A DNA stretch of 64,000 nt, taken from positions 62,001 through 126,000 of the forward strand of contig NZ_CP009512.1 of assembly GCF_000970205.1 (NCBI RefSeq), given 5' to 3'. Of this stretch, positions 6,525 through 24,968 are shown piece after piece. The notes beneath the pieces were generated by a model. That model searched no databases, had not been told where the DNA came from, and was given only the letters and a program-made list of their open reading frames with translations. Position numbers and translations under genes: made by a program. Position 1 is the first letter of the stretch, and each line of letters begins with the position of its first letter. Origin of the DNA: Methanosarcina mazei S-6 (GTDB lineage Archaea > Halobacteriota > Methanosarcinia > Methanosarcinales > Methanosarcinaceae).

Positions 6525-7217
6525 ATGGACCCAGCAAAATTACTTGACATCCTGGGGAATGAAAACCGCAGGAAGATAATTCAGCTTCTTGCAAACCGCC
6601 CCTGCTATGTCAGTGAGATTTCAGGCAGGCTGGGGGTAGGACCAAAGGCGATTATCAGTCACCTTAGCCTGTTAGAACAGGCAGGGCTGATCGAGTGCAG
6701 TGTGGACGAGCAAAGGCGCAAATATTTCAATATTGCAAATAATGTGCGGCTTGAGGTATCTGTATCACCTTATTCATATACGATGGCTCTTCAGGACATC
6801 AACTTCGACAGGGAGAAAAAACGGGAAAGTTATGCTGTCGAAAATAATGGACCTGCTACCAGAGATGAATCATCCTGCTTCTTCCTGAAGCTGAGCGAAA
6901 GGCTCCGTGAACTTAGAATAAAACAGGAAGAGCTTGCACAGATGCAGAAACAACTTCAGGCTGAATATACGGAATTGATGGATAAATGCCTGGATTCCAT
7001 CGAGGATATTGCCAGAAACCCTGTAGAATGTGAGCTTCTGTTCGAGCTTTTGAAAAACGAGGCTACAGCGGCAGTCCTTTGCTATAACCTGCGTCTGCAT
7101 CCCAGCATTATAAACTCTAACCTTATGGATCTTGCAGAAAGAGGCTTTGTTGAGTATACGATCAAAAATAGCCAGCAGTACTGGAAAATATGTGAGACCG
7201 GAGTTGAAAATAAATGA
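6525..7217 (+). CDS. ArsR-type heat-shock regulator, HSR1-like
   Basis: 230 aa. The N-terminal winged helix ([20 protein letters not shown], then the recognition helix region [14 protein letters not shown]) is of ArsR type. A coiled coil (about residues 120-160, [19 protein letters not shown]) and a second helical region follow. It overlaps the next gene by four bases (ATGA), so it is cotranscribed with cdc48 and probably hsp20. The same order, regulator-cdc48-hsp20, is the HSR1 operon of Archaeoglobus fulgidus (AF1298-AF1296). The start has a strong GAGGGGG about 7 nt upstream. Repressor function is inferred from synteny and the operator. Confidence 0.82.
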
Positions 7218-9469
7218 CTGAAGAAATTAATTTGAGAGTAGCTGAGGCTTATCATAAAGACGTGGGAAGGGGAATTGCAAGAATCGACACCCGTTTAATG
7301 CAGGAAATGGGACTTGTAAGCGGGGATATTATTGAGATTTCGGGCAGATCCAAAACCTACGCAATTGTCTGGCCAAACGTCGAACGTGGGCAGGAAAACA
7401 GGATCAGAATAGATGGAAACCTGCGGAGCAATGCAAAGGTAGGAATAGACGACAGAGTCACTATTCAGAAGGTCCAGGCAAAGCATGCTCAGAGGGTTAC
7501 ACTTGCTCCATCCCAGCCTGTCAGGCTTGTGGGTGGTGCTCATTACATCCTGAGAATAATTGAGGGCAGACCTCTAAATAAAGGTCAGCAAATAAGGGTT
7601 GAAACCGTAAACAACCCACTGACTTTCGTGGTCGCATCTACAAGACCTGCAGGTCCTGTTGTTGTTACCAAAGATACTGAAATCATCATTAAAGAAAAAT
7701 CAATTGAAGAGATCAAGGCCCCTGAAGGTATATCCTACGAAGATATCGGAGGGCTCAGACGGGAAATCCAGCTTGTAAGGGAAATGATTGAGCTGCCAAT
7801 GAGGCATCCTGAACTCTTCCAGAAGCTGGGTGTCGAGCCTCCAAAAGGAGTTCTTCTTCATGGACCTCCCGGAACGGGTAAGACCATGATTGCAAAGGCT
7901 GTCGCAAGTGAAACCGATGCCAATTTTATTACAATCAGCGGTCCTGAAATCGTCTCCAAGTATTACGGAGAAAGCGAACAGAAACTCAGGGAAATCTTCG
8001 AAGAAGCCGAGAAGGATGCTCCTTCCATCATCTTCATAGACGAAATAGACTCAATCGCCCCTAAACGAGGCGAAGTCACCGGGGAAATGGAAAGAAGGGT
8101 TGTAGCCCAGCTGCTTTCCCTGATGGACGGGCTCAAGTCCAGGGGCGAAGTGGTGGTCATAGCTGCTACAAACCGCCCGAACTCCATTGATGAAGCTCTC
8201 CGCCGCGGTGGAAGGTTTGACAGAGAGATCGAGATCGGAATACCTGACAGAAACGGCAGGAAGCAGATTCTCCTGATCCATACTAGAGGCATGCCACTCG
8301 AAGATGAAGTGAGCCTCAGTGAGATCGCAGATGTGACCCATGGTTTTGTGGGAGCTGACCTCTCATCCCTCTGTAAGGAAGCTGCAATGCATGCACTCAG
8401 AAGGATCACTCCAGAAATTGATATCGAAGAGGAGATTCCACAGGAGATCATCGACAATCTTGTGGTCACAAAAGAAAATTTCAGAGAAGCCCTGAAAAAT
8501 ATTGAGCCTTCAGCCATGAGAGAAGTCTATATTGAAGTTCCGCATGTTGGCTGGGACGATATAGGCGGGCTTGAGAAAGCAAAACAGGAACTTATCGAGT
8601 CTGTGGAATGGCCTCTCAAATATCCTGAAATGTTCAAGGCTGTCAGTATAAAGCCTCCGAGAGGCGTCCTTCTCTTCGGGCCGCCGGGTACTGGTAAAAC
8701 TTTGCTTGCAAAAGCTGTTGCAAATGAAAGTGAGGCTAATTTCATCAGCATTAAAGGCCCAGAACTCCTCAGCAAGTATGTGGGTGAATCCGAGCGTGCG
8801 ATAAGGGAAACGTTCAGGAAAGCAAAACAGGCTGCTCCGACTGTAATCTTCTTTGATGAGATCGATTCCATTGCTCCTCAAAGAAGCTCTGTTTCCGACA
8901 CGCATGTTTCCGAAAGAGTGGTCAGCCAGATCCTTACGGAACTTGACGGGATAGAAGAGCTGAAAGACGTAATCATAGTCGCCGCTACAAACAGGCCGGA
9001 TATGGTAGACCCTGCCCTTCTGAGGCCCGGCCGCTTTGACAGGCTCATCTACATCAAGCCTCCTGGAAAAGAAGGAAGAGAGAAGATCTTTGAGATTCAT
9101 GCGAAAGAAAAACCGCTTGCAGAAGATGTAAAACTCTCTGAGCTCGCTGAGATGACCGAAGGGTATGTGGGTGCGGATATTGAAGGCATCTGCAGGGAAG
9201 CTGCAATGCTAGCCCTCAGGGAAATCGTCACTCCGGGTGCTGATAGGAAGAACATCCAGGAAAAGGCAGCAGAAGTCCGTCTTTCAAAAAGGCACTTCGA
9301 AAAAGCGATCCGCCGTGTAAAGCCCACGACATCCAGAGAAACTCTGAGTGCCTATGAAAAGAGTGCTGAACTCTTTGCCAGGTACGCAACTGAGTTTGAG
9401 GAAGAGTCTTCAGAAGAAAAAGATCAGGAAATCAAGGTCGAAGAAAAAGATCAGGAAACCAGGGTCTAA
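7214..9469 (+). CDS. cdc48: Cdc48/VAT AAA+ unfoldase (751 aa)
   Basis: Archaeal homolog of p97, a hexameric ATPase that unfolds proteins. It has an N-terminal double-psi barrel domain (about 1-190), then two AAA modules: D1 with Walker A GPPGTGKT near 216-223 and Walker B FIDEID near 274, and D2 with GPPGTGKT near 489 and FFDEID near 547. Arginine-finger and sensor regions (GRFDR) are present in both. The C-terminal tail is highly charged (two near-identical EEKDQE segments). Translational coupling to the upstream regulator and downstream Hsp20 genes marks a proteostasis operon. Length is typical, with no intein. Confidence 0.97.
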
Positions 9470-9655: not shown

Positions 9656-10180
9656 ATGGACAGAGACAGGAGAAGAAGAAGTTTTTTCGATGAAATATTC
9701 GGAATTGATCCCCTGCAGGATATGGAAGAAATGTTCGAGCGCCTCAGCAGGGCTATGGGCATGAGCATGGACAACTTCGGGCAACATCCGTTTGTTTACG
9801 GCTTTTCTGTAACCCAGAGGCCAGGGGAAGAGCCTGAAATCCGGGAATTTGGGAATATCCCTATGTTTGAGCAGACTGAAACCGGAGAAAAGCGCTATCT
9901 TGACATAAGAAAACCCCTTATTGATGTACTGGAAAGCGAAGAAGTAGTCCATGTGATTGCCGAGATGCCAGGCATCGATAAAGAAAATATCCAACTGAAC
10001 GCAACTGATTTAATACTTGACATCGAAACATTAGATGGGAATCCAAAATATTCCGAACGTGTTGAACTGCCAGTAAAGGTGGATCCCCAGAGTGCCAGAG
10101 CCACTTATAAAAACGGCGTCCTGGAGGTTACCTTTAACAAAATGGAGTCCAGTTCTCGAACTTCAATCAATATTGAGTGA
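9656..10180 (+). CDS. Hsp20/alpha-crystallin-like protein 1
   Basis: 174 aa. The C-terminal half is an alpha-crystallin domain (IDVLESEEVVHVIAEMPGID, then YKNGVLEVTF, the usual A-x-x-x-N-G-x-L motif). The N-terminal half has an amphipathic start followed by FVYGFSVTQRPGEEPEIREF, shared with the next gene but not with ordinary Hsp20. Related archaeal proteins include GvpH-like chaperones; no gas-vesicle genes are nearby. It would bind unfolded protein and hand it to Cdc48 or other chaperones. It lies 186 bp after cdc48, so it may share that transcript or have its own promoter. Confidence 0.85.
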   Translation: MDRDRRRRSFFDEIFGIDPLQDMEEMFERLSRAMGMSMDNFGQHPFVYGFSVTQRPGEEPEIREFGNIPMFEQTETGEKRYLDIRKPLIDVLESEEVVHVIAEMPGIDKENIQLNATDLILDIETLDGNPKYSERVELPVKVDPQSARATYKNGVLEVTFNKMESSSRTSINIE

Positions 10181-10213: not shown

Positions 10214-10711
10214 ATGGTGGGCATAAGAAAAAGAAAGGATTTCTTTGAAGACTTTGGGTCTGAACTTTTTGACAACCTGGAAGAGATTATCGAAGCCCTC
10301 CTGGAAGAAATGGGAGAATCCGGCCCCTTTGTTTACGGATTTTCTATCATTCACCGCCCGGGGGAAGATCCCGAACTCCGGGAATTCGGAAACGTTCCGG
10401 AATACCCTCAAAAAGAAGAGAACTTCTTTCCTTCAGAAACAAAAGAACCTTTAATTGATATCTTCGAAAACGAAGATATGGTGCACGTACTTGCAGAATT
10501 CCCAGAAATCGAAAAGGAAAACCTTCTGCTGCATGCGACTGCCCAGAACCTTGAAATTAAAGTCACAGGGCTTTCTGAATTTTCGGAAGATGTGGAACTT
10601 CCTGTTCCAGTGGACCCGAAGAGTGCAAAAGCCAGCTATAAAAATGGGGTGCTTGAAGTTATCTTCAGGCGCTGTGTTGAAGAAAAACCAGTTGAAATTA
10701 AGATCAGCTAA
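10214..10711 (+). CDS. Hsp20/alpha-crystallin-like protein 2
   Basis: 165 aa, a tandem paralog of the preceding gene 33 bp away and surely cotranscribed. It repeats the block FVYGFSIIHRPGEDPELREF and the alpha-crystallin domain (LIDIFENEDMVHVLAEFPEI, then YKNGVLEVIF). A GAGG lies upstream of the start ATG. It differs mainly in the acidic N terminus, which may allow hetero-oligomers with copy 1. Function as a small heat-shock chaperone is inferred from the fold. Confidence 0.85.
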   Translation: MVGIRKRKDFFEDFGSELFDNLEEIIEALLEEMGESGPFVYGFSIIHRPGEDPELREFGNVPEYPQKEENFFPSETKEPLIDIFENEDMVHVLAEFPEIEKENLLLHATAQNLEIKVTGLSEFSEDVELPVPVDPKSAKASYKNGVLEVIFRRCVEEKPVEIKIS

Positions 10712-11833
10712 TATTTATCAACCCTATATATTTTTTAAGGGTTATATAATGCAGTCTGGAACTGTGAATAATTTCAAGCTCGAACTGCAGATTCGAGAGA
10801 AAATTTGAAGCTCTGGACAAATATAAGCTGATGTTCTAATTAAAAAGATAAAGCCCATAGGAATACCTATAAAGCGAATATTCTCTCTGCTGGTCCAAAA
10901 GAATTAATTTTTTTATCTACTTTTTTATTTTATTCTATTCTTTTTTCACTTTTATATTGGTAGTTTATCAAATTTTTTTATGGATAATCTCTGAATATAT
11001 TTTTCATCATTGGAGTTCCAAGCTCGAATTCCGGTTTTTCTGGGAAAATATTGAGTATAAATAAAAAATATTTATTTTATGGGTTTAAATTCTTAAAAAA
11101 AGATGTATAAAAACTATTTGATCCAAAATAAAAAAATATAGCAAGTTTATGAATTTCCTGTTTCTGGCGCTTAATCTCTTTTTATTAATTTTCCAGCTGG
11201 GAATTTTTACGCTAAACCTTTCACTTTTGATAATAACAAAAGCAAAAACTATATACCTATCTTAGAGTAACAAGATCTCTATAGCCCCGATATAAACAAA
11301 GCATGATGGATTGAGAGAAAGATATATGGATATTAGTTCTGATCTGTGTAATTTTTAACATTAAAAATCCGGGATCACACTTTGTTCTTTATCTTAATTT
11401 CTTAACTCCATGGATTAAAAAATAGAGGCGGTCTTGCCGATAGAATGACTCAACTTCATGTGAATTGTCTGATAATATTTCAATTGTACATAACAATTGT
11501 GGATCGGGACTTTTCCATTTGAAGATTATTAATAAATTGATTTTTCAAATGTATGAAATTGAACAGGTCTATAGCACAGAAAAGGTCTCTGCAAGGCTAA
11601 AAAATGGGGCTTCGCAGCGTTCAACAGGACACAAATTCTTCAATTAGTTTGTAATCTACTGTTTACAGTTAATGATTCTTCATATCAACCAGTAATTATT
11701 GCAATATTAGTTCGGTTATTTCATCCCTCAATATTAGTTATACTGTTAATAAGGGATTTCAAATCTACAGTTTATCAAGTTTTACTTTACTGTGGGAACG
11801 CTACAGGTTTATTAGTAAAGGAGGAAAAAAGTA
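10712..11833. other. 1.1-kb intergenic region upstream of the DUF1646 array
   Basis: Strongly AT-rich. A 60-codon frame at 11465-11647 has no clear homology or Shine-Dalgarno and is not called. The last about 130 bp contain the promoter-like element of the first DUF1646 copy. The word gcgttcaacag (near 11619) recurs upstream of copy 3 (near 15540), consistent with duplicated upstream DNA. No RNA gene seen. Confidence 0.45.
11703..11717 (+). promoter_or_regulatory. Box-A-like element of DUF1646 copy 1
   Basis: The sequence aatattagttcgg starts exactly 131 bp before the ATG, the position of the clearer aatatattatgg element in the other three copies. Weak on its own; supported by the conserved spacing. 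Confidence 0.4.
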
Positions 11834-12946
11834 ATGGCTCTTGAACCAGGAATTTTAGCTGGATTCCTTGTAATCTTCCTGGCCGTATTGTTCGGCCCTT
11901 TTAAGATACATGTTATTGAGGAAAATCTGGAACCATTTTTGCTTGTTTGCGGTATTGCAGCAATGACTCTTTCAGGTTTTGTCGAAATCCCGGGTAATGA
12001 GACCGGCTGGCGGATGGAGATCGTCGAAGAAGCATTTACTGCCCCGTTACACGTTGGAGATATCTTTGGTATTCCAATAGGCATATTCCAGATCGTGCTT
12101 GTAGTCGGTTTGATTATTTATAAATGGCATTCTCCAATCCACAAAGCAATCAGGAAATTGACTGATATGCTTTCTGTTAAGGTTTTAGGTTTTCTCCTTA
12201 TTGTTATTCTGGGACTTCTTTCAAGTGTTATGTCGGCTATTCTTGCATCAATTATTCTCGTTGAGGTAGTTAATGCGATGCCTCTCTCTCGCAAGTCCAA
12301 GATAGACCTCACAATTATTGCATGTTTCTCAATCGGACTTGGAGCAGCACTTACCCCCCTAGGAGAACCTCTTTCAACAATCGCCATCTCAAAATTAGCC
12401 GGTGAACCTTACAATGCTGATTTCATGTTTTTGTTCAATATGCTTGGTAAGTATATTATCCCAGGTATCTTCGCTTTCGGTATTATTGGAGTGTTTTTCC
12501 TTGGAAAAGCTGACCCGAAAGAGGCAGGAATGAAAGCAGCAGACTATAACGAGACTGTAAAGGATGTCGTGATGAGGGCGGTCAAAGTTTATGTGTTTAT
12601 CATGGCTCTAACATTCCTTGGAGAAGGTTTCAAGCCTCTTATCCTTGAATACTTTATCCAGATTCCTTCTGGTATTCTCTACTGGGTTAACATGGTTTCT
12701 GCCATTCTTGATAATGCTACCCTCGCAGCTGCTGAAATCGGACCTGCTCTCAGTGAAATCCAGATTAAGAGTATACTTATGGGTCTTTTAATTGCAGGTG
12801 GTATGCTTATCCCTGGAAATATCCCTAATATTATCTCTGCAGGAAAACTTGGTATTAACAGTAAAGAATGGGCAAGACTTGGACTCCCTCTTGGGGTCAT
12901 CTCAATGGCTGTCTATTTCGTCCTCATCTTCATGCTTGGGATATAA
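11834..12946 (+). CDS. DUF1646 membrane transporter-like protein, copy 1
   Basis: 370 aa integral membrane protein with about ten hydrophobic helices. Signature segments are GLGAALTPLGEPLSTIAISK (middle of the protein) and ILDNATLAAAEIGP near residue 300, two helix-break motifs typical of the ion-transporter superfamily that contains DUF1646. M. mazei members have been annotated as cation transporters, but no substrate is proven. A GGAGG precedes the ATG. It is the first of four equal-length paralogs in tandem, each separated by 550-900 bp, so they are separate transcription units. Confidence 0.88.
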   Translation: MALEPGILAGFLVIFLAVLFGPFKIHVIEENLEPFLLVCGIAAMTLSGFVEIPGNETGWRMEIVEEAFTAPLHVGDIFGIPIGIFQIVLVVGLIIYKWHSPIHKAIRKLTDMLSVKVLGFLLIVILGLLSSVMSAILASIILVEVVNAMPLSRKSKIDLTIIACFSIGLGAALTPLGEPLSTIAISKLAGEPYNADFMFLFNMLGKYIIPGIFAFGIIGVFFLGKADPKEAGMKAADYNETVKDVVMRAVKVYVFIMALTFLGEGFKPLILEYFIQIPSGILYWVNMVSAILDNATLAAAEIGPALSEIQIKSILMGLLIAGGMLIPGNIPNIISAGKLGINSKEWARLGLPLGVISMAVYFVLIFMLGI

Positions 12947-13851
12947 GCTCAAATATGCCCACCAGAAAAGTTGTACCGGTCAGTTCCGAAATCTGGTAAT
13001 GAAAAGCCGGATTCTGGAACAAACTCCGGTATATTTCCATTAGTGATTACAAATTCATAATATTCTCTTCAAGTTTACAGGAAAAGTAATTTTCACAGAT
13101 ATGAAATCTAAAATTTAATAAATACACTCAAGAGACCACATAATCCTATCAATCCATACCACAAAATTCTTTCATATCTTGAATCGAATTTCTCCATGAA
13201 ATTTGAAGAGGATATCATTTTTTTGATAGTTTTGTTGATAACCTTCGATTTAAAACCCTGCAGGAAATACGAGATATTATTTTCTATATCTATTGTTTTT
13301 ATTTACTATTTTTTATATTTGCTATTTTCTATATTTACTATTTTTTATATTTGCTATTTTTTTATACTTATTATTATTATTATTTTATGTTTAATATTAT
13401 TTTATATTTAACTCAGATCACTTTATCTTGATATAAGACGGAGCCTTGAGATTTCTAGGGCTTATAAACTTACTATCCTTACTTCTTTTGGATCGACTCT
13501 TTGATTATGTTTTTTAATCTCACACTGGCTATTATTTATAAAAAGACGTCAAATGTTTATTATTTGTATTACCAGCGCCAAACAGTTTTATTTACTGAAA
13601 ATATGGGCCAAAAATCCTTTTTTAATGATAAAAATATGCTTTATCAGGGTTTCAAATGAAAATAAAATATCCATCTTTGGAAAAAATGTAATACTTTCTT
13701 TATATATTAAACACTAATATATTATGGCAGATTAAATAGAACACCTCTTATAACACTAAAACATTCTAGCCTCTAAAGGAGTTTAACAGTATAATAAACT
13801 CTTAAAGAATTTTGTGGTCTAGATTGATAACTATAGGAGGAAAAAATAGTA
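12947..13851. other. Intergenic region between DUF1646 copies 1 and 2
   Basis: Begins with a 3' flank related to those of copies 2 and 3 (attctggaacaaa). A low-complexity tract of ttttatatttgctatttt-type units runs from about 13285 to 13410. The last 137 bp hold the promoter and leader of copy 2. No gene seen. Confidence 0.5.
13715..13727 (+). promoter_or_regulatory. Box-A-like element of DUF1646 copy 2
   Basis: taatatattatgg, with its attatgg part beginning 131 bp before the ATG, as in copy 3. It predicts a leader of about 105 nt. Confidence 0.55.
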
Positions 13852-14964
13852 ATGGCTCTTGAACCAGGAATTTTAGCTGGATTTCTTGTAATATTCTTGG
13901 CCGTATTGCTCGGCCCTTTTAAGATACATGTTATTGAGGAAAATCTGGAACCATTTTTGCTTGTTTGTGGTATCGCAGCAATGACTCTTTCAGGTTTTGT
14001 CAAAATCCCCGGTGAAGAGACTGGCTGGCGGATGGAAATCATCGAAGAATCACTGACTTCACCTCTGCACGTTGGAGATATTTTTGGCATTCCAATCGGC
14101 ATATTCCAGATTGTGCTTGTTGTCGGTTTGATTATTTATAAATGGCATGATCCGATCCACAAAGCAATCAGAAAGCTTACCGATATCCTTTCTGTTAAAG
14201 TCTTGGGTTTTCTTCTAATTGTTGTTCTTGGCTTATCCTCAAGTGTTATGTCAGCTATTCTTGCTGCAATTATTCTTGTTGAGGTAGTTAATGCAATGCC
14301 ACTTCCTCGTAAGTCCAAGATCGACCTTACAATCATTGCATGTTTCTCAATCGGACTTGGCGCTGCGCTTACTCCCCTTGGAGAACCTCTCTCAACAATT
14401 GCTGTTTCAAAGTTAGCCGGTGAACCTTACCACGCTGATTTCATGTTTTTGTTCAATATGCTTGGTAAATACATTATTCCAGGTATCTTCGCTTTCGGTA
14501 TTGTTGGAGTGTTTTTCCTTGGAAAAGTTGATACTAAAGATGCAGGGATGAAAGCAGCAGATTATAACGAGACTATAAAGGACGTTATAATGAGAGCTGT
14601 AAAAGTCTACGTATTCATTGCAGCACTCGTGTTGCTCGGCGAAGGTTTCAAGCCTCTTATCCTTGAATACTTTATCCAGATTCCTTCTGGCATTCTCTAC
14701 TGGGTTAACATGGTTTCTGCTATCCTTGATAATGCTACCCTTTGCGCTGCTGAAATCGGACCTGCTCTCAGTGAGATACAGATAAGGAGTATACTTATGG
14801 GTCTTTTACTCTCAGGTGGTATGCTTATCCCTGGAAATATCCCTAACATTATCTCCGCAGGAAAACTTGGTATTACCAGTAAAGAATGGGCAAGGCTCGG
14901 TTTCCCACTCGGGATCGTCGCGATGGCTGTCTATTTCGTCGTTATCTTCGTACTTGGAATATAA
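13852..14964 (+). CDS. DUF1646 membrane transporter-like protein, copy 2
   Basis: 370 aa, same topology as copy 1, with the GLGAALTPLGEPLSTIAVSK and ILDNATLCAAEIGP signatures. Over roughly 14090-14390 the DNA is essentially identical to copy 3, whereas the following aattgctgtttcaaag segment matches copy 4 instead. The downstream segment at 15001-15060 is also shared with copy 3. This mosaic points to repeated gene conversion within the array. GGAGG precedes the ATG. Transported ion unknown. Confidence 0.88.
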   Translation: MALEPGILAGFLVIFLAVLLGPFKIHVIEENLEPFLLVCGIAAMTLSGFVKIPGEETGWRMEIIEESLTSPLHVGDIFGIPIGIFQIVLVVGLIIYKWHDPIHKAIRKLTDILSVKVLGFLLIVVLGLSSSVMSAILAAIILVEVVNAMPLPRKSKIDLTIIACFSIGLGAALTPLGEPLSTIAVSKLAGEPYHADFMFLFNMLGKYIIPGIFAFGIVGVFFLGKVDTKDAGMKAADYNETIKDVIMRAVKVYVFIAALVLLGEGFKPLILEYFIQIPSGILYWVNMVSAILDNATLCAAEIGPALSEIQIRSILMGLLLSGGMLIPGNIPNIISAGKLGITSKEWARLGFPLGIVAMAVYFVVIFVLGI

Positions 14965-15611
14965 GCTCAAAATATGCTCATTCAGCTATACTGATTTAGT
15001 TTCAGAATCCGGTGATAAATAAACTTCAAAATCACTGAATTCTGGAACAAATTTTGTTACAGCCTCATAATACTGCTTGCAGTTTCAATTATTCCTCTTC
15101 GAATCGAATGGAAAAAGATTGAAGAAGATACAGTTTTTATACTTGCGCTTTTTTATACTTTCGGCAATTTTTTAAATTTCCTGTAGAAAATGTAATCCGT
15201 TTTAAAACTCAATATTTTCTGTATTCATTTAACTTCTCATCTTTTTTTAATTAAACTCTGAAATTAAACCCTTTTATTTATATTAACAGTTTTCTATAAA
15301 TTAATCCAGATTTTTTTGATTCTCTGGAATAATAGATATGAAAGCAGCCTGACAGAACTATAATTAAAAACACTTTCTAATGGCACCTAAATATGAATCT
15401 TAAGTAAGTTTCTGATAAAGAAAAGCCTGAGAGCCCTGTACAGATCCACAAGAGCTTAATTCCATTTTTAGGGAAAATATATTATGGAAGAATATATAAT
15501 TACTCTGGCTTTTATAAGGTAAAAAATTCGGAACTCAAAGCGTTCAACAGTAGGCGAATTTTACAGGCTTTAATTCTCTAGAATAATAATTTTAAGGAGG
15601 AAAAAATAGTA
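14965..15611. other. Intergenic region between DUF1646 copies 2 and 3
   Basis: Starts with a duplicated 3' flank (cggtgataaataaacttc, then aaaatcactgaattctgg) that recurs after copy 3 around 16772-16830. The remainder is AT-rich. The promoter-like element and leader of copy 3 occupy the last 137 bp. Confidence 0.5.
15475..15487 (+). promoter_or_regulatory. Box-A-like element of DUF1646 copy 3
   Basis: aaatatattatgg, with attatgg beginning 131 bp before the ATG, the same spacing as in copy 2. Confidence 0.55.
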
Positions 15612-16724
15612 ATGGCTCTTGAACCAGGAATTTTAGCTGGATTTCTTGTAATCTTCCTGGCCGTATTACTCGGCCCTTTTAAGATACATGTTATTGAGGA
15701 AAATCTGGAACCATTTTTGCTTGTTTGCGGTATCGCAGCAATGACTCTTTCAGGTTTTGTTGAACTGCCAGGTGAAGAGACTGGCTGGCGGATGGAAATC
15801 ATCGAAGAATCGCTAACTTCACCTCTGCACGTTGGAGATATTTTTGGCATTCCAATCGGCATATTCCAGATTGTGCTTGTTGTCGGTTTGATTATTTATA
15901 AATGGCATGATCCGATCCACAAAGCAATCAGAAAGCTTACCGATATCCTTTCTGTTAAAGTCTTGGGTTTTCTTCTAATTGTTGTTCTTGGCTTATCCTC
16001 AAGTGTTATGTCAGCTATTCTTGCTGCAATTATTCTTGTTGAGGTAGTTAATGCAATGCCACTTCCTCGTAAGTCCAAGATCGACCTTACAATCATTGCA
16101 TGTTTCTCAATCGGACTTGGCGCTGCGCTTACTCCCCTTGGAGAACCTCTTTCAACAATCGCCATCTCAAAGTTAGCCGGTGAACCTTACCACGCTGATT
16201 TCATGTTTTTGTTCAACATGCTTGGTAAATATATCTTCCCGGGTATCTTTGCGTTTGGTCTTTTAGGAGTTTTCTTCCTTGGAAAAGCTGACCCGAAAGA
16301 TGCAGGAATGAAAGCAGCAGATTATAACGAAACTGTAAAGGACGTTATAATGAGAGCTGTAAAAGTCTACGTATTCATTGCAGCACTCGTGTTGCTCGGC
16401 GAAGGTTTCAAGCCTCTTATCCTTGAATACTTTATCCAGATTCCTTCTGGCATTCTCTACTGGGTTAACATGGTTTCTGCTATCCTTGATAATGCTACCC
16501 TTTGCGCTGCTGAAATCGGGCCAGCTCTCAGTGAGATACAGATAAGGAGTATACTTATGGGGCTTTTAATTGCTGGTGGTATGCTCATCCCTGGAAATAT
16601 CCCGAACATTATCTCTGCAGGAAAACTTGGTATTACCAGTAAAGAATGGGCAAGGCTTGGAGTGCCCCTTGGGCTTGTCGCAATGGCTATCTATTTCGTC
16701 GTTATCTTCGTACTTGGAATATAA
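15612..16724 (+). CDS. DUF1646 membrane transporter-like protein, copy 3
   Basis: 370 aa. Most of the protein is identical to copy 2; differences cluster around residues 50-52 and 195-245 and at the C terminus. The ATCGCCATCTCAAA segment for TIAISK follows copy 1, and the following YIFPGIFAFGLLG stretch resembles copy 4. GGAGG precedes the ATG. It is membrane embedded like its paralogs. Separate promoters suggest the copies can be expressed under different conditions, which is an inference. Confidence 0.88.
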   Translation: MALEPGILAGFLVIFLAVLLGPFKIHVIEENLEPFLLVCGIAAMTLSGFVELPGEETGWRMEIIEESLTSPLHVGDIFGIPIGIFQIVLVVGLIIYKWHDPIHKAIRKLTDILSVKVLGFLLIVVLGLSSSVMSAILAAIILVEVVNAMPLPRKSKIDLTIIACFSIGLGAALTPLGEPLSTIAISKLAGEPYHADFMFLFNMLGKYIFPGIFAFGLLGVFFLGKADPKDAGMKAADYNETVKDVIMRAVKVYVFIAALVLLGEGFKPLILEYFIQIPSGILYWVNMVSAILDNATLCAAEIGPALSEIQIRSILMGLLIAGGMLIPGNIPNIISAGKLGITSKEWARLGVPLGLVAMAIYFVVIFVLGI

Positions 16725-17276
16725 GCTCAAAGTGCACCCATTCGAGTGTAATTATATAGTGTAATTATATGTTTCAGATTCGGTGATAAAATAAACTTTA
16801 AAATCACTGAATTCTGGAACAAATTTTAGTAAAGCTCCCATATAACGAATAATTAGCTATTAATTCTCAGATTATCTTAGTATCAGGTTTTAATCCTTAT
16901 TTTTCAATTGTTGATTTTTCCAGATTTGAAATCACCATATTTCCTGGATGTACAATATTTCTAATGTTTTTATCCAATTTTGGAGTTTGCACTTCTCTTT
17001 CATCACAGGCAATATTTGCGTGCAGGTAAAGGAGCCCATGAATTATATGCAGGAATGAATTATTATCAAAACCGAGAACAAGAAGTCCGTGACTATTGTA
17101 CGGGGGGAATAAAATTCTAAAGTATAATATAATGATAGATTAATATATTATAGGACTATATTTAATAAAACAGGTTTCTATAAGGCCCAACCATTCGAGA
17201 ATTTCATGCTGTTAAATAGCAAGCTACTTTCTCAGGCCCTTTATGACCTAGAGTAATAACTAAAGGAGGAAAACTA
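16725..17276. other. Intergenic region between DUF1646 copies 3 and 4
   Basis: Contains the duplicated 3' flank (about 16772-16830) and AT-rich DNA without a recognisable gene. The promoter element and leader of copy 4 fill the last about 136 bp. Confidence 0.5.
17141..17154 (+). promoter_or_regulatory. Box-A-like element of DUF1646 copy 4
   Basis: taatatattatagg; its attatagg part begins 130 bp before the ATG, one base off the spacing in copies 2 and 3. Confidence 0.5.
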
Positions 17277-18389
17277 ATGGCTCTTGATTTAGGAGTTTTA
17301 ATTGGATTTCTTGTAATATTCCTCACCGTATTGATTGGACCTTTTAAAATACACGTTATTGAAGAAAATCTGGAAGTATTCCTGCTGGTCTGCGGTATCG
17401 CAGCAATGACACTTTCAGGTTTTGTTAAAATTCCCGATGTTGAAACAGGATGGAGTTTAGAAATTATTGAAGAGGCAGTGACCGCTCCATTGCACGTTGG
17501 AGATATCTTTGGTATTCCAATCGGCATATTCCAGATCGTGCTTATAGTCGGCCTGCTCATCTATAAATGGCATACTCCAATCCACAATGCAATCAGAAAA
17601 CTTACCGACATGCTTTCTGTTAAGGTTCTGGCTTTTCTTTTGATTGTCGTGCTCGGCTTATCCTCAAGTATTATCTCGGCTATTCTTGCTGCAATAATTC
17701 TTGTTGAGGTAGTTAATGCAATGCCTCTGTCTCGAAAGTCCAAGATAGACCTTACAATCATTGCATGTTTCTCAATTGGTCTTGGAGCAGCACTTACCCC
17801 CCTCGGAGAGCCTCTCTCAACAATTGCTGTTTCAAAGTTAGCCGGCGAACCTTACAATGCTGATTTTCTGTTCCTGTTTAATATGCTTGGCAAATATATT
17901 TTCCCGGGTGTCTTTGCTTTTGGACTTCTTGGTGTGTTTTTCCTTGGAAAAGCTGACCCAAAAGCTCATGAAATGGAATCCGCAGACTATAACGAGACTG
18001 TAAAGGATGTCGTGATGAGGGCTATCAAGGTTTATGTGTTTATTGCGGCGCTCGTACTGCTCGGAGAAGGTTTCAAGCCCCTCATATTCGAGTATTTCAT
18101 ACAGGTTCCGTCTATGGCGCTCTACTGGATTAACATGGTCTCTGCTGTCCTTGATAATGCAACTCTGGCAGCTGCTGAGATAGGACCTATCCTTAGTGAA
18201 TTCCAGATAAGGAGTATCCTTATGGGACTTTTAATCTCGGGAGGAATGATGATACCAGGAAATATTCCTAACATTATCTCTGCAAGCAAATTGGGTATTA
18301 CCAGTAAAGAGTGGGCGAGACTCGGGTTGCCTCTCGGGCTTGTCGCGATGACTATCTATTTCATCGTGCTGTTTATACTCAAAATCTAA
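17277..18389 (+). CDS. DUF1646 membrane transporter-like protein, copy 4
   Basis: 370 aa and the most divergent paralog (starts MALDLGVLIGFLVIFLTVLI). It keeps GLGAALTPLGEPLSTIAVSK and VLDNATLAAAEIGP. It uses more C/G at third positions than copies 1-3 in its second half and lacks their shared 3' flank, so it is probably the oldest member or partly isolated from conversion. AAAGGAGG precedes the ATG. It is followed after 190 bp by the RuBisCO gene, but that spacer has its own Shine-Dalgarno and AT-rich promoter region, so linkage of function is not implied. Confidence 0.87.
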   Translation: MALDLGVLIGFLVIFLTVLIGPFKIHVIEENLEVFLLVCGIAAMTLSGFVKIPDVETGWSLEIIEEAVTAPLHVGDIFGIPIGIFQIVLIVGLLIYKWHTPIHNAIRKLTDMLSVKVLAFLLIVVLGLSSSIISAILAAIILVEVVNAMPLSRKSKIDLTIIACFSIGLGAALTPLGEPLSTIAVSKLAGEPYNADFLFLFNMLGKYIFPGVFAFGLLGVFFLGKADPKAHEMESADYNETVKDVVMRAIKVYVFIAALVLLGEGFKPLIFEYFIQVPSMALYWINMVSAVLDNATLAAAEIGPILSEFQIRSILMGLLISGGMMIPGNIPNIISASKLGITSKEWARLGLPLGLVAMTIYFIVLFILKI

Positions 18390-18578: not shown

Positions 18579-19865
18579 ATGAGAAGGGACTATATTGACA
18601 TCGGCTACAGCCCGAAAGAGACGGATCTGGTCTGTGAATTCCACATTGAACCAACAGCAGGAGTGAATTTTGAAGAAGCTGCCACCCATCTGGCAGGGGA
18701 AAGTTCCATAGATTCCTGGACTGAGATTGCTACGCTGAGTCCTGAACTTGCAGAGAAACTGAAACCCCATGTCTTTTATGCGGATGAGGGTGCACAGACT
18801 ATAAGGGTTGCTTATTCGGAAGAGCTTTTTGAGCTGGGTTCTGTCCCTCAGGTCCTCAGTGCTGTTGCAGGGAATATCCTGAGCATGAAAATAGTTGATA
18901 ACGTAAGGCTGCAGGATATCGCTTTCCCGAAATCAATGATTAATGAATTCAAAGGCCCTAACTTCGGACTGCCGGGGATCAGAAAACTTGTGGGCGTACA
19001 GGACAGGCCTCTCATAGGGACTATTGTTAAACCGAAAGTCGGCCTGAACTCTGAAAAGCACGCTGAGGTCGCTTACAATTCTTTTGTCGGGGGCTGCGAC
19101 CTTGTTAAGGACGATGAAAATCTGAGTGATCAGAAATTTAACAGTTTTGAGAAGAGAGCCGAGCTTACCCTGAAACTTGCAGAAAAGGCAGAGTCTGAGA
19201 CAGGGGAAAAGAAGATGTACCTCTGCAATGTCACTGCCCCCACCTGCAGGGAAATGATCCGCCGCATGAACTTCCTTAAAGACCTTGGAGCCAGTTATGT
19301 AATGGTTGACATCGTGCCCGCTGGCTGGACTGCGATTCAAACCCTGCGCGAGGAAGCTGAGGATGCGGGTCTTGCCCTTCACGCCCACCGCTGCATGCAT
19401 TCCGCCTACACACGAAACCCGCGCCATGGGATAAGCATGCTTGTTGTTGCCAAGCTGTGCAGGCTGATAGGCCTTGACCAGCTCCACATAGGCACTGTTG
19501 TCGGGAAAATGCATGGAGAAAAGCATGAAGTCCTTAACCTCAGGGACCAGTGCGTGCTCGATAAAGTGCCTGCCGACGAAAGCCAGCATATCCTTGCCCA
19601 GGACTGGGGGGGATTAAAGCCAATGTTCCCTGTAGCATCCGGAGGTCTCGCTCCTACAATGATCCCTGACCTTTATTCTATCTTTGGAAAAGACGTTATT
19701 ATGCAGTTCGGAGGCGGAATTCACGCTCACCCAATGGGCACAGTAGCCGGAGCCACTGCGTGCAGGCAGGCTCTCGAAGCAAGCCTTGAAGGAATCAGCC
19801 TCCAGGACTATGCGAAAAATCATAAAGAACTTGAAACCGCTCTTGGAAAATGGTTGAAGAAATAA
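18579..19865 (+). CDS. rbcL: Form III RuBisCO large subunit
   Basis: 428 aa, short as archaeal form III enzymes are, with no small-subunit gene nearby. Catalytic segments are visible: GTIVKPKVGL near residue 150 (active-site lysine), GCDLVKDDEN near 172 (carbamylated lysine and metal-binding Asp/Glu), HAHRCMHSA near 268, the loop-6 lysine in IGTVVGKMHGE, and GGGIHAHPMGTVAG near the C terminus. In archaea this enzyme carboxylates ribulose-1,5-bisphosphate made from AMP, giving 3-phosphoglycerate. AMP phosphorylase and ribose-1,5-bisphosphate isomerase are not in the window. AGGAGTAAGGAG lies before the ATG. Confidence 0.96.
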   Translation: MRRDYIDIGYSPKETDLVCEFHIEPTAGVNFEEAATHLAGESSIDSWTEIATLSPELAEKLKPHVFYADEGAQTIRVAYSEELFELGSVPQVLSAVAGNILSMKIVDNVRLQDIAFPKSMINEFKGPNFGLPGIRKLVGVQDRPLIGTIVKPKVGLNSEKHAEVAYNSFVGGCDLVKDDENLSDQKFNSFEKRAELTLKLAEKAESETGEKKMYLCNVTAPTCREMIRRMNFLKDLGASYVMVDIVPAGWTAIQTLREEAEDAGLALHAHRCMHSAYTRNPRHGISMLVVAKLCRLIGLDQLHIGTVVGKMHGEKHEVLNLRDQCVLDKVPADESQHILAQDWGGLKPMFPVASGGLAPTMIPDLYSIFGKDVIMQFGGGIHAHPMGTVAGATACRQALEASLEGISLQDYAKNHKELETALGKWLKK

Positions 19866-19991: not shown

Positions 19992-21086
19992 GTGAAGGCA
20001 GAAAACGGAAATAAAAAAGAGACCCGGATTTTGAGGGTCTCTGAAGTGAATTTTGACGTGATTATAGACGAGGCTGCGGAAATCATCCGAAAAGGAGGAA
20101 CTGTCGCCTTCCCAACTGAGACAGTCTACGGGCTTGGGGCTGACGGGCTTAACCCGGATACCGTTCTGAAAATTTTTGAGGCAAAGGAACGCCCCCCGGG
20201 GAACCCTCTAAGTCTCCTTGTCCATTCCAGGGAAGACATTAAAAAGGTTGCAAAAAATATTCCTGAAAAAGCTCTCTTGCTTATGGACACTTTCTGGCCC
20301 GGTCCCCTCACAATTGTGCTTGAGAAAAAAGATACTGTTCCGGAAATCACTTCGGGAAACCTGCCTACAATAGGGCTCCGCATGCCTGACCACAGGATCC
20401 CCCTGGAACTTGTAAAAAGGGCATGCACCCCTCTGGCTGCTCCAAGTGCTAACCTTTCAGGAAAGCCCAGTCCCAGCCTGGCAATCCATGTCCTGGCTGA
20501 CCTGGCAGGCAGGATTGATGCGGTTATTGATGGAGGGGGGACAGCCATAGGGCTTGAGTCTACCGTTGTTGATATGACGGTCGAACCTCCTGTCGTGCTC
20601 AGGATAGGAGCCGTAGGAATTGGCGAGCTTGAAAAAGTTATAGGTAAAATCAGGCCCACATATGCGGGAGCCGAATCCGGGTCTGGAATGCTTATGCCTG
20701 AAAAACAGGCAGGACAGAAGTACAGCCATTACACTCCCAATACACAGGTCGTGCTCGTCGAAGGGAAAAGCGAAGAAAAAGTTTCTGAACAGATTGGTAT
20801 TTTGCTGGAAGAACATGTGAGCAAAGGCCAGAAAGTCGGGCTTTTACTCAGTGATGAGACCGCAGGTTTTTTTACTGCCGAAGAGTTGAATGTCCACGAC
20901 TGCTTTTTACTGGGGTCCCGAAAAGAGCCGGAAGGAGCCGCAAAGAGATTATTTGAAGGGCTCAGGACACTTGACGCAGCAGGGCTGGATGTGATCCTTG
21001 CTGACGGTTCTTTTTCCCATTCAGGACTTGGAGCTGCCCTTATTAACCGGTTAAGAGAAGCCGCTTCAGTAAGGCATCTTGTTTAA
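19992..21086 (+). CDS. sua5: Threonylcarbamoyl-AMP synthase (Sua5 type)
   Basis: 364 aa. The N-terminal YrdC domain (about 20-220; GGTVAFPTETVYGLGAD, then PLAAPSANLSG and the LESTVVD segment) makes threonylcarbamoyl-AMP from threonine, bicarbonate and ATP. This is the first step of the t6A37 modification of ANN-decoding tRNAs. A C-terminal Sua5 domain (about 245-364) is present, distinguishing it from short YrdC/TsaC. A GTG start is used, with AAGGAG about 9 nt upstream. It follows RuBisCO on the same strand with a 126-bp gap. Confidence 0.93.
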   Translation: MKAENGNKKETRILRVSEVNFDVIIDEAAEIIRKGGTVAFPTETVYGLGADGLNPDTVLKIFEAKERPPGNPLSLLVHSREDIKKVAKNIPEKALLLMDTFWPGPLTIVLEKKDTVPEITSGNLPTIGLRMPDHRIPLELVKRACTPLAAPSANLSGKPSPSLAIHVLADLAGRIDAVIDGGGTAIGLESTVVDMTVEPPVVLRIGAVGIGELEKVIGKIRPTYAGAESGSGMLMPEKQAGQKYSHYTPNTQVVLVEGKSEEKVSEQIGILLEEHVSKGQKVGLLLSDETAGFFTAEELNVHDCFLLGSRKEPEGAAKRLFEGLRTLDAAGLDVILADGSFSHSGLGAALINRLREAASVRHLV

Positions 21087-21509: not shown

Positions 21510-24500
21510 ATGGGTGAAACTATTGCAAGTGAAGAAATGCACAGGTACTTCGATGGGCTTGAGGCAAGATTAAAAGAAGCAATTGAGATTGCAAACAGAG
21601 CACGAGCCCGGGGAGGAGATCCCAGACCCGTTGTAGAAATCCCTCTTGCCAAAGACCTTGCGGATAGGGTTGAAAACCTTATTGGAGTCAAGGGTGTTGC
21701 TGAAAAGATCCGGGAACTTGAGGCCAGGATGTCCAGGGAAGAAGCTGCCCTTGAGATCGGAAAACAGGTTGCTGAAGGGGTGGTAGGAAGTTTTCCTTCA
21801 AAGAAAGATGCCGTTGAAGCTGCTATTCGTGTCTCAATGGCGGTTCTGACGGAAGGGGTGGTTGCGGCTCCTATTGAAGGAATTGATAAGGTAGACCTTG
21901 GTAAAAATGATGACGGTTCGCAGTACATAAGGATCTTTTATTCCGGGCCTATCAGAAGCGCTGGAGGGACTGCTCAGGCACTTTCCGTTCTGGTCGGCGA
22001 TTATGTGAGACGCGGGATCGGGATCGACCGCTATAAGCCAAGAGAAGAGGAAGTGGAGAGGTATGTGGAAGAAATCCTGCTTTATAAAAGGGTTGCAAGC
22101 TTACAGTATACGCCTTCTGAAGATGAAATCCGCCTGATAGTCCGGAACTGTCCTGTTTGTATTGACGGGGACCCGACTGAAGAAGCCGAGGTTGAAGGGC
22201 ACAGGGACCTTGAAAGGATAGGAACGAACCGCGTCAGGGGAGGGATGTGCCTTGTACTTGCCGAAGGGCTTGCACTCAAGGCTCCCAAGGTCAAAAAGCA
22301 CGTGAATAAATTGAAAATGGACGGCTGGGACTGGCTCGAGACACTTATCGGGGGAGCTAAAAGCGGGGAAAGCGATGAAGATGAGCAGAAAAACAAAATC
22401 AAGCCAAAGGATAAATACATCCGTGACCTGATCGCCGGGAGACCTGTGTTCTCTCACCCCTCAAGGCCTGGAGGATTCAGGCTGCGGTACGGGCGGTCAA
22501 GAAATACTTCTTTTGCTTCAGCAGGGATTAATCCTGCCGGTATGGTTCTGCTTGATGATTTTATTACTAACGGAACCCAGCTTAAGATCGAAAGGCCCGG
22601 TAAAGCTGCCGCAATGTCTGCCGTGGACTCGATAGAAGGGCCTACGGTAAGGCTTTTTTCAGGAGACCTTATCCGGGTAGATGATATAAAGGAGGCGTAC
22701 GAAGTCCGCCAGCAGGTTGAAGTAATTGTGGATATCGGGGAAATTCTGATCAATTACGGGGACTTTCTGGAGAATAATCATCCTCTCATGCCTTCCCCCT
22801 ATGTTTTCGAGTGGTGGATTTATGATTACGAATCCGTCTGCTCCGAAAAGATCCTTGAGAAAGATTTGAAAAATCCGTCCGCCAGTCTTGCCCTCAAGCT
22901 TGCAGAGAAGTATAATGTGCCTCTGCACCCGAAGTTCACCTATCTCTGGCATGACATAAACCGAAATGAGTTTGAGGCTTTAAGAAAGTTCGTAGCTGAA
23001 AAAGGGACCTTTCTGGAGGGTGAAGGAGAAGGAGAAGGAGAAGGAATCCTCAAACTGCCCCTCGAAGACTCTGTTAAAGAGGGCATAAAACCTGTGCTTG
23101 AAAAGCTTCTTGTTCTGCATAAGGTAAAAGAAGGCGGTATCTTTGTTGAAGAAGCTCTCCCGTTTATTTTATGCCTCGGGCTTGACAGGTCGCTTAAAGA
23201 AAAAGTCAGTATGCCGGATACTGGTGATATGGTAGAAGCCGCAGGCATTTTGAGCGGGTTTAAGGTTTATCCAAAGGCTCCTTCAAGGATAGGGGCAAGG
23301 ATGGGAAGACCGGAAAAATCCGACCTGCGAAAGATGTCTCCTGCTGCTCAGGTTCTTTTTCCGATAAGCAATGCAGGAGGAATGACGCGTAACCTTGTCT
23401 CTGCTTCAGATTATACTTCGTGCATGAATGCCAAGATAGGGGAAATCGAAGTTGAACTGGGGCTGAGGGAGTGCCCCGCCTGCGGGAAAGAATCTTATTT
23501 CTGGCGCTGTGAATGCGGGGAATTTACCAATCCCAAACTTTCCTGCCCCCGATGCAAAATTGACGTGAGAGGTGCAGAAACCTGCCCCAAGTGTGGGAGA
23601 AAACCGACCTCCGTTGCGAATGTAAAGCTGGATTTCCGTCCTATTTACAAGCAGGCTTTTGAGAATGTGGGCGAAAGGGAAAGAATGGATATTATTAAGG
23701 GAGTAAAAAGGCTCATGAATGGGCAGATGACTCCCGAGCCTCTGGAAAAAGGAATCCTGCGTGCAAAGCATGATGTTTATATTTTTAAGGATGGGACAGT
23801 CAGGTATGATATGTCCGATATCCCCCTTACGCATATCAGGGCTGATGAGCTCGGAATTACCGCAGCCAGGCTTAGAGAACTCGACTATAAAGAGGACATC
23901 TATGGAAAGCCGCTTGAGAGGGACGACCAGGTTGTCTGTCTGAAGGTTCAGGACCTTCTGCTTTCTTATGATGGGGCTGAGTATATGCTGCGTACGGCAA
24001 AGTATGTGGATGAGCTTCTTGTGAAGTATTACAAGGTTGAACCCTACTATAATGCCGAAACCATTCAGGACCTCGTCGGGGTACTGATGATAGGGCTTGC
24101 TCCACATACTTCAGCGGGAGTGCTTGGGCGCCTTATAGGTTTTACAAAAGCTTCAGTAGGTTATGCACATCCTTTTTTTCATGCTTCAAAACGCAGGAAT
24201 TGTGATGGGGATGAGGACTGCGTAATGCTTCTTATGGACGGAATTCTCAATTTTTCGAGGTCGTATCTTCCCGAGAAAAGGGGAGGAAAGATGGACGCTC
24301 CTCTGGTGTTGACCACCAGAATCGACCCCAAGGAAGTGGACAAAGAAGCCCATAATATTGATTTGCTTGCAAGATATCCTCTTGAGTTTTACAGGGCTAC
24401 GCAGGAGATCAAAAGCCCCACCGAGATTGAAAGCATTATGGACCTCGTCAGCAGCCGGCTGGGTAAGCCTGATCAGTACGAGCACTTTATGTTTACACAC

Positions 24501-24968
24501 GATACTTCAAATATTGCTGCAGGTCCTCTGAAATCTTCATATAAGACTCTTGGAAGCATGATTGAGAAGATGGAGGCTCAACTCTCCCTGGCTGGCAAGA
24601 TAAGGGCGGTAGATGCACCTGATGTGGCTGAAAGAGTTTTAAAGTCTCATTTTCTTCCGGACCTGATTGGAAATCTCCGTTCTTTTTCCAGACAGCGCAT
24701 GCGCTGCATCAAATGTGGAGAAAAGTTCAGACGCCCGCCTCTCACAGGAGCATGCCCTAAGTGCGGGGGCAATGTAGTACTGACTGTACATGAGGGAGCT
24801 GTCCGCAAATATCTTGAAATTTCAAAAGAGATCGGTGAAAGGTACGGGGTTTCAAGCTATACCAGGCAAAGAATCGAGCTTCTTGACTATGATATCTGCT
24901 CTCTGTTTGAAAACCATAAGGTTAAGCAGCTTGGACTCTCGGATTTTATGTCCGGGTCTGCGCGCTGA
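21510..24968 (+). CDS. polC: DNA polymerase D large (catalytic) subunit DP2
   Basis: 1152 aa, the normal length for an intein-free DP2. This is the polymerase subunit of the archaeal D-family replicase; the exonuclease subunit DP1 is not in the window. Visible blocks are the N-terminal [20 protein letters not shown], the central zinc-finger cluster [17 protein letters not shown] through CPKCGRK (about 655-705), the [20 protein letters not shown] catalytic region, where acidic residues bind metal, and a C-terminal zinc ribbon ([14 protein letters not shown]). A Gly/Glu hexanucleotide-repeat insertion (GEGEGEGEG) lies near residue 510. Confidence 0.97.

Follow-up and report, generated by a model that had tools for sequence, protein, structure and literature searches.

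A tandem DUF1646 array and the Mrp operon as alternative occupants of one chromosomal slot in Methanosarcina

We examined a 64,000-nucleotide stretch of the Methanosarcina mazei S-6 chromosome (NZ_CP009512.1, positions 62,001 to 126,000; hereafter the window, numbered from its first letter), which carries four tandem genes of the DUF1646 family. The four open reading frames (copy 1, 11834–12946; copy 2, 13852–14964; copy 3, 15612–16724; copy 4, 17277–18389) are all intact and lie on the forward strand, as do the other features given below unless noted. Each encodes a 370-aa protein covering the PF07854 profile from position 2–4 to 347 of 347, scoring 435–441 bits against a curated cut-off of 21.4, with E values of 2.4e-130, 8.2e-132, 5.7e-132 and 1e-131 for copies 1 to 4 (all <1e-129). 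The whole genome (one contig of 4,142,816 bp) contains four DUF1646 matches, all of them in this array. The other paralogs are 85–96% identical to copy 3 at the protein level; copies 1–3 form a clade of their own (ultrafast bootstrap (UFBoot) 99–100) and carry conversion tracts, and copy 4 falls in a separate lineage, the D clade of the tree, which supplies the last gene of most arrays. An initial annotation of this DNA had pointed out that all copies are exactly 370 codons long, which is true yet not specific to the array: across the genus, full-length copies mostly have 368–372 codons. In G002, the first copy (L046, 4452–5560) is split into two overlapping frames, likely a frameshift or assembly error. 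The description of the array as maintained agrees with the genus-wide picture, in which the same slot holds 1–4 DUF1646 copies, and with the pairwise ratios of nonsynonymous to synonymous change (dN/dS) of 0.09–0.13 among the window copies, indicating that all four are under purifying selection.

The array is flanked by genes of conserved order, named here from their Pfam matches. On the left lie cdc48, encoding an AAA ATPase (7214–9469; PF02359/PF02933/PF00004) and neighboring DUF1646 or Mrp genus-wide, and two hsp20 genes in conserved order (a, 9656–10180; b, 10214–10711, the immediate left flank; both PF00011). On the right lie the RuBisCO large chain gene, which follows DUF1646 or Mrp (18579–19865; PF00016/PF02788), the gene for Sua5/YrdC threonylcarbamoyl-AMP synthase (19992–21086; PF01300/PF03481) and that for DNA polymerase II large subunit DP2 (21510–24968; PF24844/PF24846/PF03833). 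This slot, cdc48-hsp20-hsp20-[X]-RuBisCO-sua5-polD, is common to DUF1646 and to Mrp, the Na+/H+ antiporter encoded by MnhABCDEFG in M. acetivorans. Fifteen DUF1646 genomes, including that of the window, show cdc48-hsp20-hsp20, one to four DUF1646 genes and RuBisCO on one contig, with sua5 next wherever the stretch extends that far. The slot is split over two contigs in G012, G023 and G024, consistent with the same order, and in G011 only the right flank is visible, the remaining copies lying on other contigs. Six Mrp genomes show cdc48-hsp20-hsp20-MrpABCDEFG-RuBisCO-sua5-polD. Of three further Mrp genomes, G001 shares this left side, its RuBisCO gene lying about 17 kb past Mrp; G008 keeps the left side, and the 37 kb read there contain no RuBisCO; and in the fragmentary G026 Mrp adjoins RuBisCO. 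A Mutator-family transposase lies between Mrp and RuBisCO in G007 (L107, 14194–15036). A tblastn search with the seven Mrp subunits against 23 loci of DUF1646 genomes, all outside the window, found none at E 1e-6; the window genome (G000) has no PF03334 match, and the array does not classify as Mrp. One hsp20-RuBisCO slot thus holds either the array or the Mrp operon as alternatives, a larger point that the initial annotation did not contain. The whole Mrp arrangement, cdc48-hsp20-hsp20-MrpABCDEFG-RuBisCO-sua5-polD, recurs in a sister-genus genome (G118) and its left side in a second genome of the nearest other genus (G069), so that Mrp is probably the ancestral content of the slot. In G016, which carries neither system, cdc48-hsp20-hsp20 is kept and is followed by different genes.

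The two systems have complementary distributions. Among 30 Methanosarcina genomes, 18 carry DUF1646, nine carry MrpG, none carries both and three carry neither (Fisher P = 1.5e-5); across 149 genomes of the class, DUF1646 was found in 62, MrpG in 77 and both in three (Fisher P = 1.1e-24), these tests counting related genomes as independent, with no phylogenetic correction. G021 also gave a DUF1646 match (E 3.9e-4), which would have brought the number to 19 but was dropped after PF07854 gave no match there; by eye, the 420-aa open reading frame concerned resembles a CitMHS-family protein of G000. Rnf occurs in eight of the 30 genomes, all of them Mrp genomes. EchE-like proteins, picked out from the PF00346 matches by score class and open reading frame length (~362 aa), occur in 17 of the 18 DUF1646 genomes, in all three genomes with neither system and in one of the nine Mrp genomes (G008); the sole DUF1646 genome lacking one, G020, is 75% complete and has no PF00346 match whatever. 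An Ech-like hydrogenase subunit goes with DUF1646, and Rnf with Mrp; PMC12297640 divides Methanosarcina into type I (Ech) and type II (Rnf). In one DUF1646 genome, G023, the PF00346 match is EchE-like only, with no FpoD-like protein, and the Fpo complex may have been lost.

We extracted arrays genus-wide and compared their 600-bp 5' flanks (leaders), which fall into classes by array position, labeled in this comparison U1 (first gene), U2 (middle) and U3 (last). We compared 12 genomes whose arrays each lie on a single contig. For all 36 of their genes (36/36), the closest leader in a different genome belonged to the same position class, and for 31 the best coding sequence (CDS) match in another genome did so. 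The best CDS match lay within the own genome for only six of the 36, so that conversion is episodic and not wholesale. The CDS of 15 U1 and 13 U2 genes reject a U1/U2 split (log-likelihood difference (delta lnL) 507; approximately unbiased (AU) test, 4e-22). Between positions -200 and -20, the leaders of window copies 1–3 are 54–59% identical, against 52–53% for shuffled sequence and 87–95% for the coding regions. Leaders are thus orthologous by position and coding sequences are sometimes overwritten within a genome, which argues that conversion swaps coding sequence and spares the leaders. Across 13 aligned copies, the U2 leader is better conserved than third codon positions for 63 of the 78 pairs; the same holds for only 60 of 105 pairs each among U1 and U3 leaders.

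That each copy keeps its own conserved, unconverted leader class lends indirect support to selection for differential expression, as read from sequence comparison: conversion would keep the transporters alike, and separate leaders would let each copy answer different conditions. The array could instead be kept for dosage only, with differences among leaders that have no regulatory meaning, and the close similarity of the paralogs to copy 3 under conversion that homogenizes coding regions fits this alternative. We hold it to be credible but on the unlikely side, given leader classes that are orthologous by position in all 36 genes and U2 leaders that exceed third codon positions in similarity in most pairs (U1 and U3 less often).

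A sequence model of a shared leader element, R1, matched upstream of all four window copies: at 11563–11642 for copy 1 (U1 class; E 3.6e-5), 13706–13803 for copy 2 (U2 class; E 9.1e-14), 15469–15567 for copy 3 (E 4.6e-14), whose nearest leader is that of copy 3 in G002, and 17134–17235 for copy 4 (U3 class; E 3.1e-17). The 22 training sequences are all DUF1646 leaders, including those of copies 2–4 and excluding that of copy 1, so most R1 matches arise by construction. Outside DUF1646 leaders, the best match in the 30 genomes reached only E 8.7e-4 (in the fragmentary G026), and the best in the window genome 0.0067. No conserved RNA pairing was predicted for the element, which therefore looks more like promoter DNA. 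A Na+ riboswitch in the leaders was considered and rejected, there being no Rfam match and, around the array at E up to 5, nothing above chance level; at gathering scores, an Rfam scan of the window for families including the Na+-I aptamer returned two tRNAs only. These two tRNA genes lie close together on the reverse strand (221–295 and 359–433) and have identical Rfam scores.

The content of the slot has changed more than once. Two gene trees, one of the linked cdc48 and one of an AAA ATPase paralog that is unlinked, place the window genome, G023 and G024 inside the Mrp-bearing clade, apart from the other DUF1646 genomes, and forcing the genomes with DUF1646 or neither system into one group was rejected (AU 0.0015 and 0.00026). 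Since the DUF1646 genomes do not form one clade in either gene tree, more than one switch of the slot took place. The tree of the Mrp operon also conflicts with the cdc48 tree (AU 2.3e-4). Slot content seems to move between species, with the flanks following the species, and the exchange would be explained most simply by recombination through those flanks. A slot that is merely tolerant of insertions, in which Mrp and DUF1646 are unrelated cargo and their exclusivity stems from shared ancestry and ecology, would account for the extra genes between Mrp and RuBisCO in Mrp genomes (a metallophosphoesterase, a hydantoinase-like gene and a Mutator transposase), and for exclusivity that persists where Mrp lies away from cdc48, as in G032. 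We consider this unlikely, as every slot of the genus resolved on both flanks holds DUF1646 or Mrp and never both, DUF1646 occurs in two separate Methanosarcina clades, and exclusivity recurs in other families.

The shared slot and the mutual exclusivity, together with the literature on bacterial Na+ riboswitches and antiporters, suggest DUF1646 as a stand-in for Mrp. Na+ activates the riboswitch formed by the DUF1646 RNA motif, and the genes associated with Na+-I riboswitches include bacterial DUF1646 genes, some of whose proteins are predicted to be Na+/H+ antiporters (PMC9337991, PMC9646797). These bacterial proteins belong to the same family as the window copies (E <1e-129), but the window differs in having a tandem array, distinct leaders and no Rfam riboswitch match nearby. 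Spring et al. describe Mrp as occurring only in halophilic Methanosarcinaceae, raise the question of the reason and suggest that sodium homeostasis matters less to freshwater species (PMC3017947). According to a review, Mrp sets the Na+/H+ ratio for ATP synthesis (PMC7399021). On these grounds, our somewhat favored reading is that the array encodes putative exchangers of Na+ (or another monovalent cation) for H+ that replace Mrp in Ech-type Methanosarcina. The proteins would couple the Mtr-built Na+ gradient to the H+ gradient that Ech and other proton pumps build, as has been proposed for Mrp in M. acetivorans; by analogy with bacterial DUF1646 genes and their Na+-activated riboswitch, they may work in the direction of Na+ export. 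DUF1646 and Mrp share a chromosomal slot, a complementary distribution and, on this reading, a proposed role in the Na+/H+ ratio, whereas the proteins themselves are unrelated: Mrp is a seven-gene operon of complex-I-like subunits and DUF1646 a single-gene family in tandem. Among the papers searched, none joins DUF1646 with Methanosarcina and none contains the family accessions PF07854 or IPR012443.

Family ties of DUF1646 are faint. CitMHS belongs to the ion transporter superfamily, which includes NhaD and has a fold of two inverted hairpin repeats. CitMHS matches (E up to 1) were obtained for four of 12 DUF1646 members, the best at E 5.7e-6; the best score among the window copies was 21.7 bits, below the curated PF03600 cut-off of 31.9. 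A GEP-type stretch of DUF1646 also aligns with Escherichia coli NhaB. The evidence for any kinship with NhaB, NhaD, ArsB and CitMHS proteins consists of these Pfam matches, this stretch and weak profile comparisons. A scan of viral contigs for DUF1646 relatives found none.

Several observations weigh against an exchanger that replaces Mrp. The profile comparisons were not significant with NhaB (E 0.086, probability 0.7%), ArsB (E 0.0062, 6%) or a CitMHS protein (E 8.5e-4, 24%); an AlphaFold2 model built from 20 sequences of the window and the other loci reached a mean predicted local distance difference test (pLDDT) score of only 41.9; and the family profile gave no match to PDB sequences at E up to 10. 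PF00999 exchangers are present in 28 of the 30 genomes, with six matches in the window genome, and DUF1646 is therefore not the sole candidate exchanger. Three genomes of family f5 carry both DUF1646 and Mrp, G015, G016 and G018 (L114–L116) have an EchE-like protein and neither system, and G008 lacks DUF1646 and combines Ech-like with Rnf and Mrp genes. Ecology, not function, may also underlie the phyletic pattern. On this line, DUF1646 would carry another substrate, an organic or inorganic anion as CitMHS relatives do, with the link to Ech reflecting habitat and substrates; the only named superfamily signal is indeed to this citrate transporter family, and PF00999 proteins could already provide Na+/H+ exchange. 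The exact sharing of a slot with a Na+/H+ antiporter, their exclusivity and the bacterial Na+ riboswitch link nevertheless make an anion carrier quite improbable.

Some of the genomes named above are unusual in other respects. The only ones with both systems (G057:C1:1217229-1231117 (L155), G040:C46 and G099:C50/C121) have many DUF1646 matches, some inside open frames of 579–719 codons and some truncated to about 264 codons. In G015, G016 and G018, the EchE-like protein is the sole PF00346 protein, and G015 and G016 lack PF00999 matches at E 1e-10.

Within the window, the coding regions recombine with one another, consistent with the earlier claim of gene conversion: a single tree does not fit all segments. 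At the DNA level, copies 1 and 2 are 87.4% identical, copies 1 and 3 87.3%, copies 2 and 3 94.9%, and any of these and copy 4 80–81%. The long identical stretches already noticed between copies 2 and 3 were confirmed at CDS positions 205–539 (335 bp; 14056–14390 in copy 2 and 15816–16150 in copy 3) and 725–908 (184 bp; 14576–14759 and 16336–16519); between them, at CDS 601–660, identity drops to 78%. Synonymous divergence (dS) between the two copies accordingly alternates along the gene, being 0.00 over codons 69–179, 0.71 over 180–241, 0.00 over 242–302 and 0.37 over 303–370. The longest identical tract exceeds chance expectation (P = 5e-5) even with the differences confined to positions that vary among 49 homologues. 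Across the four copies, 66 sites are informative: 45 group 1+4|2+3, 12 group 1+3|2+4 and nine group 1+2|3+4. They are clustered, forming 17 runs instead of the expected 32.9 (P = 5e-5). Both proposed switches of affinity proved real: at the TIA(I/V)SK segment, the informative sites at 540–555 all group copies 1 and 3 against 2 and 4, and at the Y(I/F)PG segment, those at 625–649 all group 1 and 2 against 3 and 4. The 3' flanks of copies 2 and 3 are likewise duplicated, as proposed (14999–15063 and 16771–16835; family D7, 83% identity). Conserved motifs could hold some stretches alike without conversion, but a mosaic produced by chance, or by uneven selection along one tree without recombination, is very hard to credit when dS of 0.00 adjoins dS of 0.71 in the copy 2/3 pair, not easily a result of uneven selection at the protein level, the quartet sites are clustered, and CDS data reject the leader-class topology (delta lnL 507).

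Recurrent conversion of energy-metabolism paralogs in Methanosarcinales has been described as long-lasting concerted evolution (mtmB, mtbB and others; PMC6053082). The archaeal table of that work does not list DUF1646, and the sparing of leaders is seen in the DUF1646 arrays. Taken as one, the parts form a more tentative proposal, which we put forward at somewhat less than even confidence: DUF1646 would be the unrecognized Na+/H+ antiporter in Ech-type Methanosarcina and, judging from its distribution, in the other families of the class that carry DUF1646 and lack Mrp; the hsp20-RuBisCO slot would be a site of exchange between species, at which Mrp operon and DUF1646 array are swapped through housekeeping flanks; and the coding regions would convert under leaders that stay unmixed. 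The proposal would give an unknown protein family a specific, testable candidate function and a possible answer to the question, raised in PMC3017947, of why freshwater, Ech-type Methanosarcina do without Mrp. A protein joining the H+ and Na+ gradients would also bear on how these methanogens obtain ATP from acetate and H2. The locus itself offers a clean natural case of in-place non-orthologous replacement and of conversion sparing regulatory leaders.

Two further features accompany DUF1646 genes. The intergenic region between copies 1 and 2 contains a 26-nt inverted repeat (13147–13172 and 13804–13829; 92% complementary, 631 nt apart). In another family, an independent array of three tandem DUF1646 genes (G048:C2:240434-246002, L154) shows an exact spacing of 2273 bp twice.

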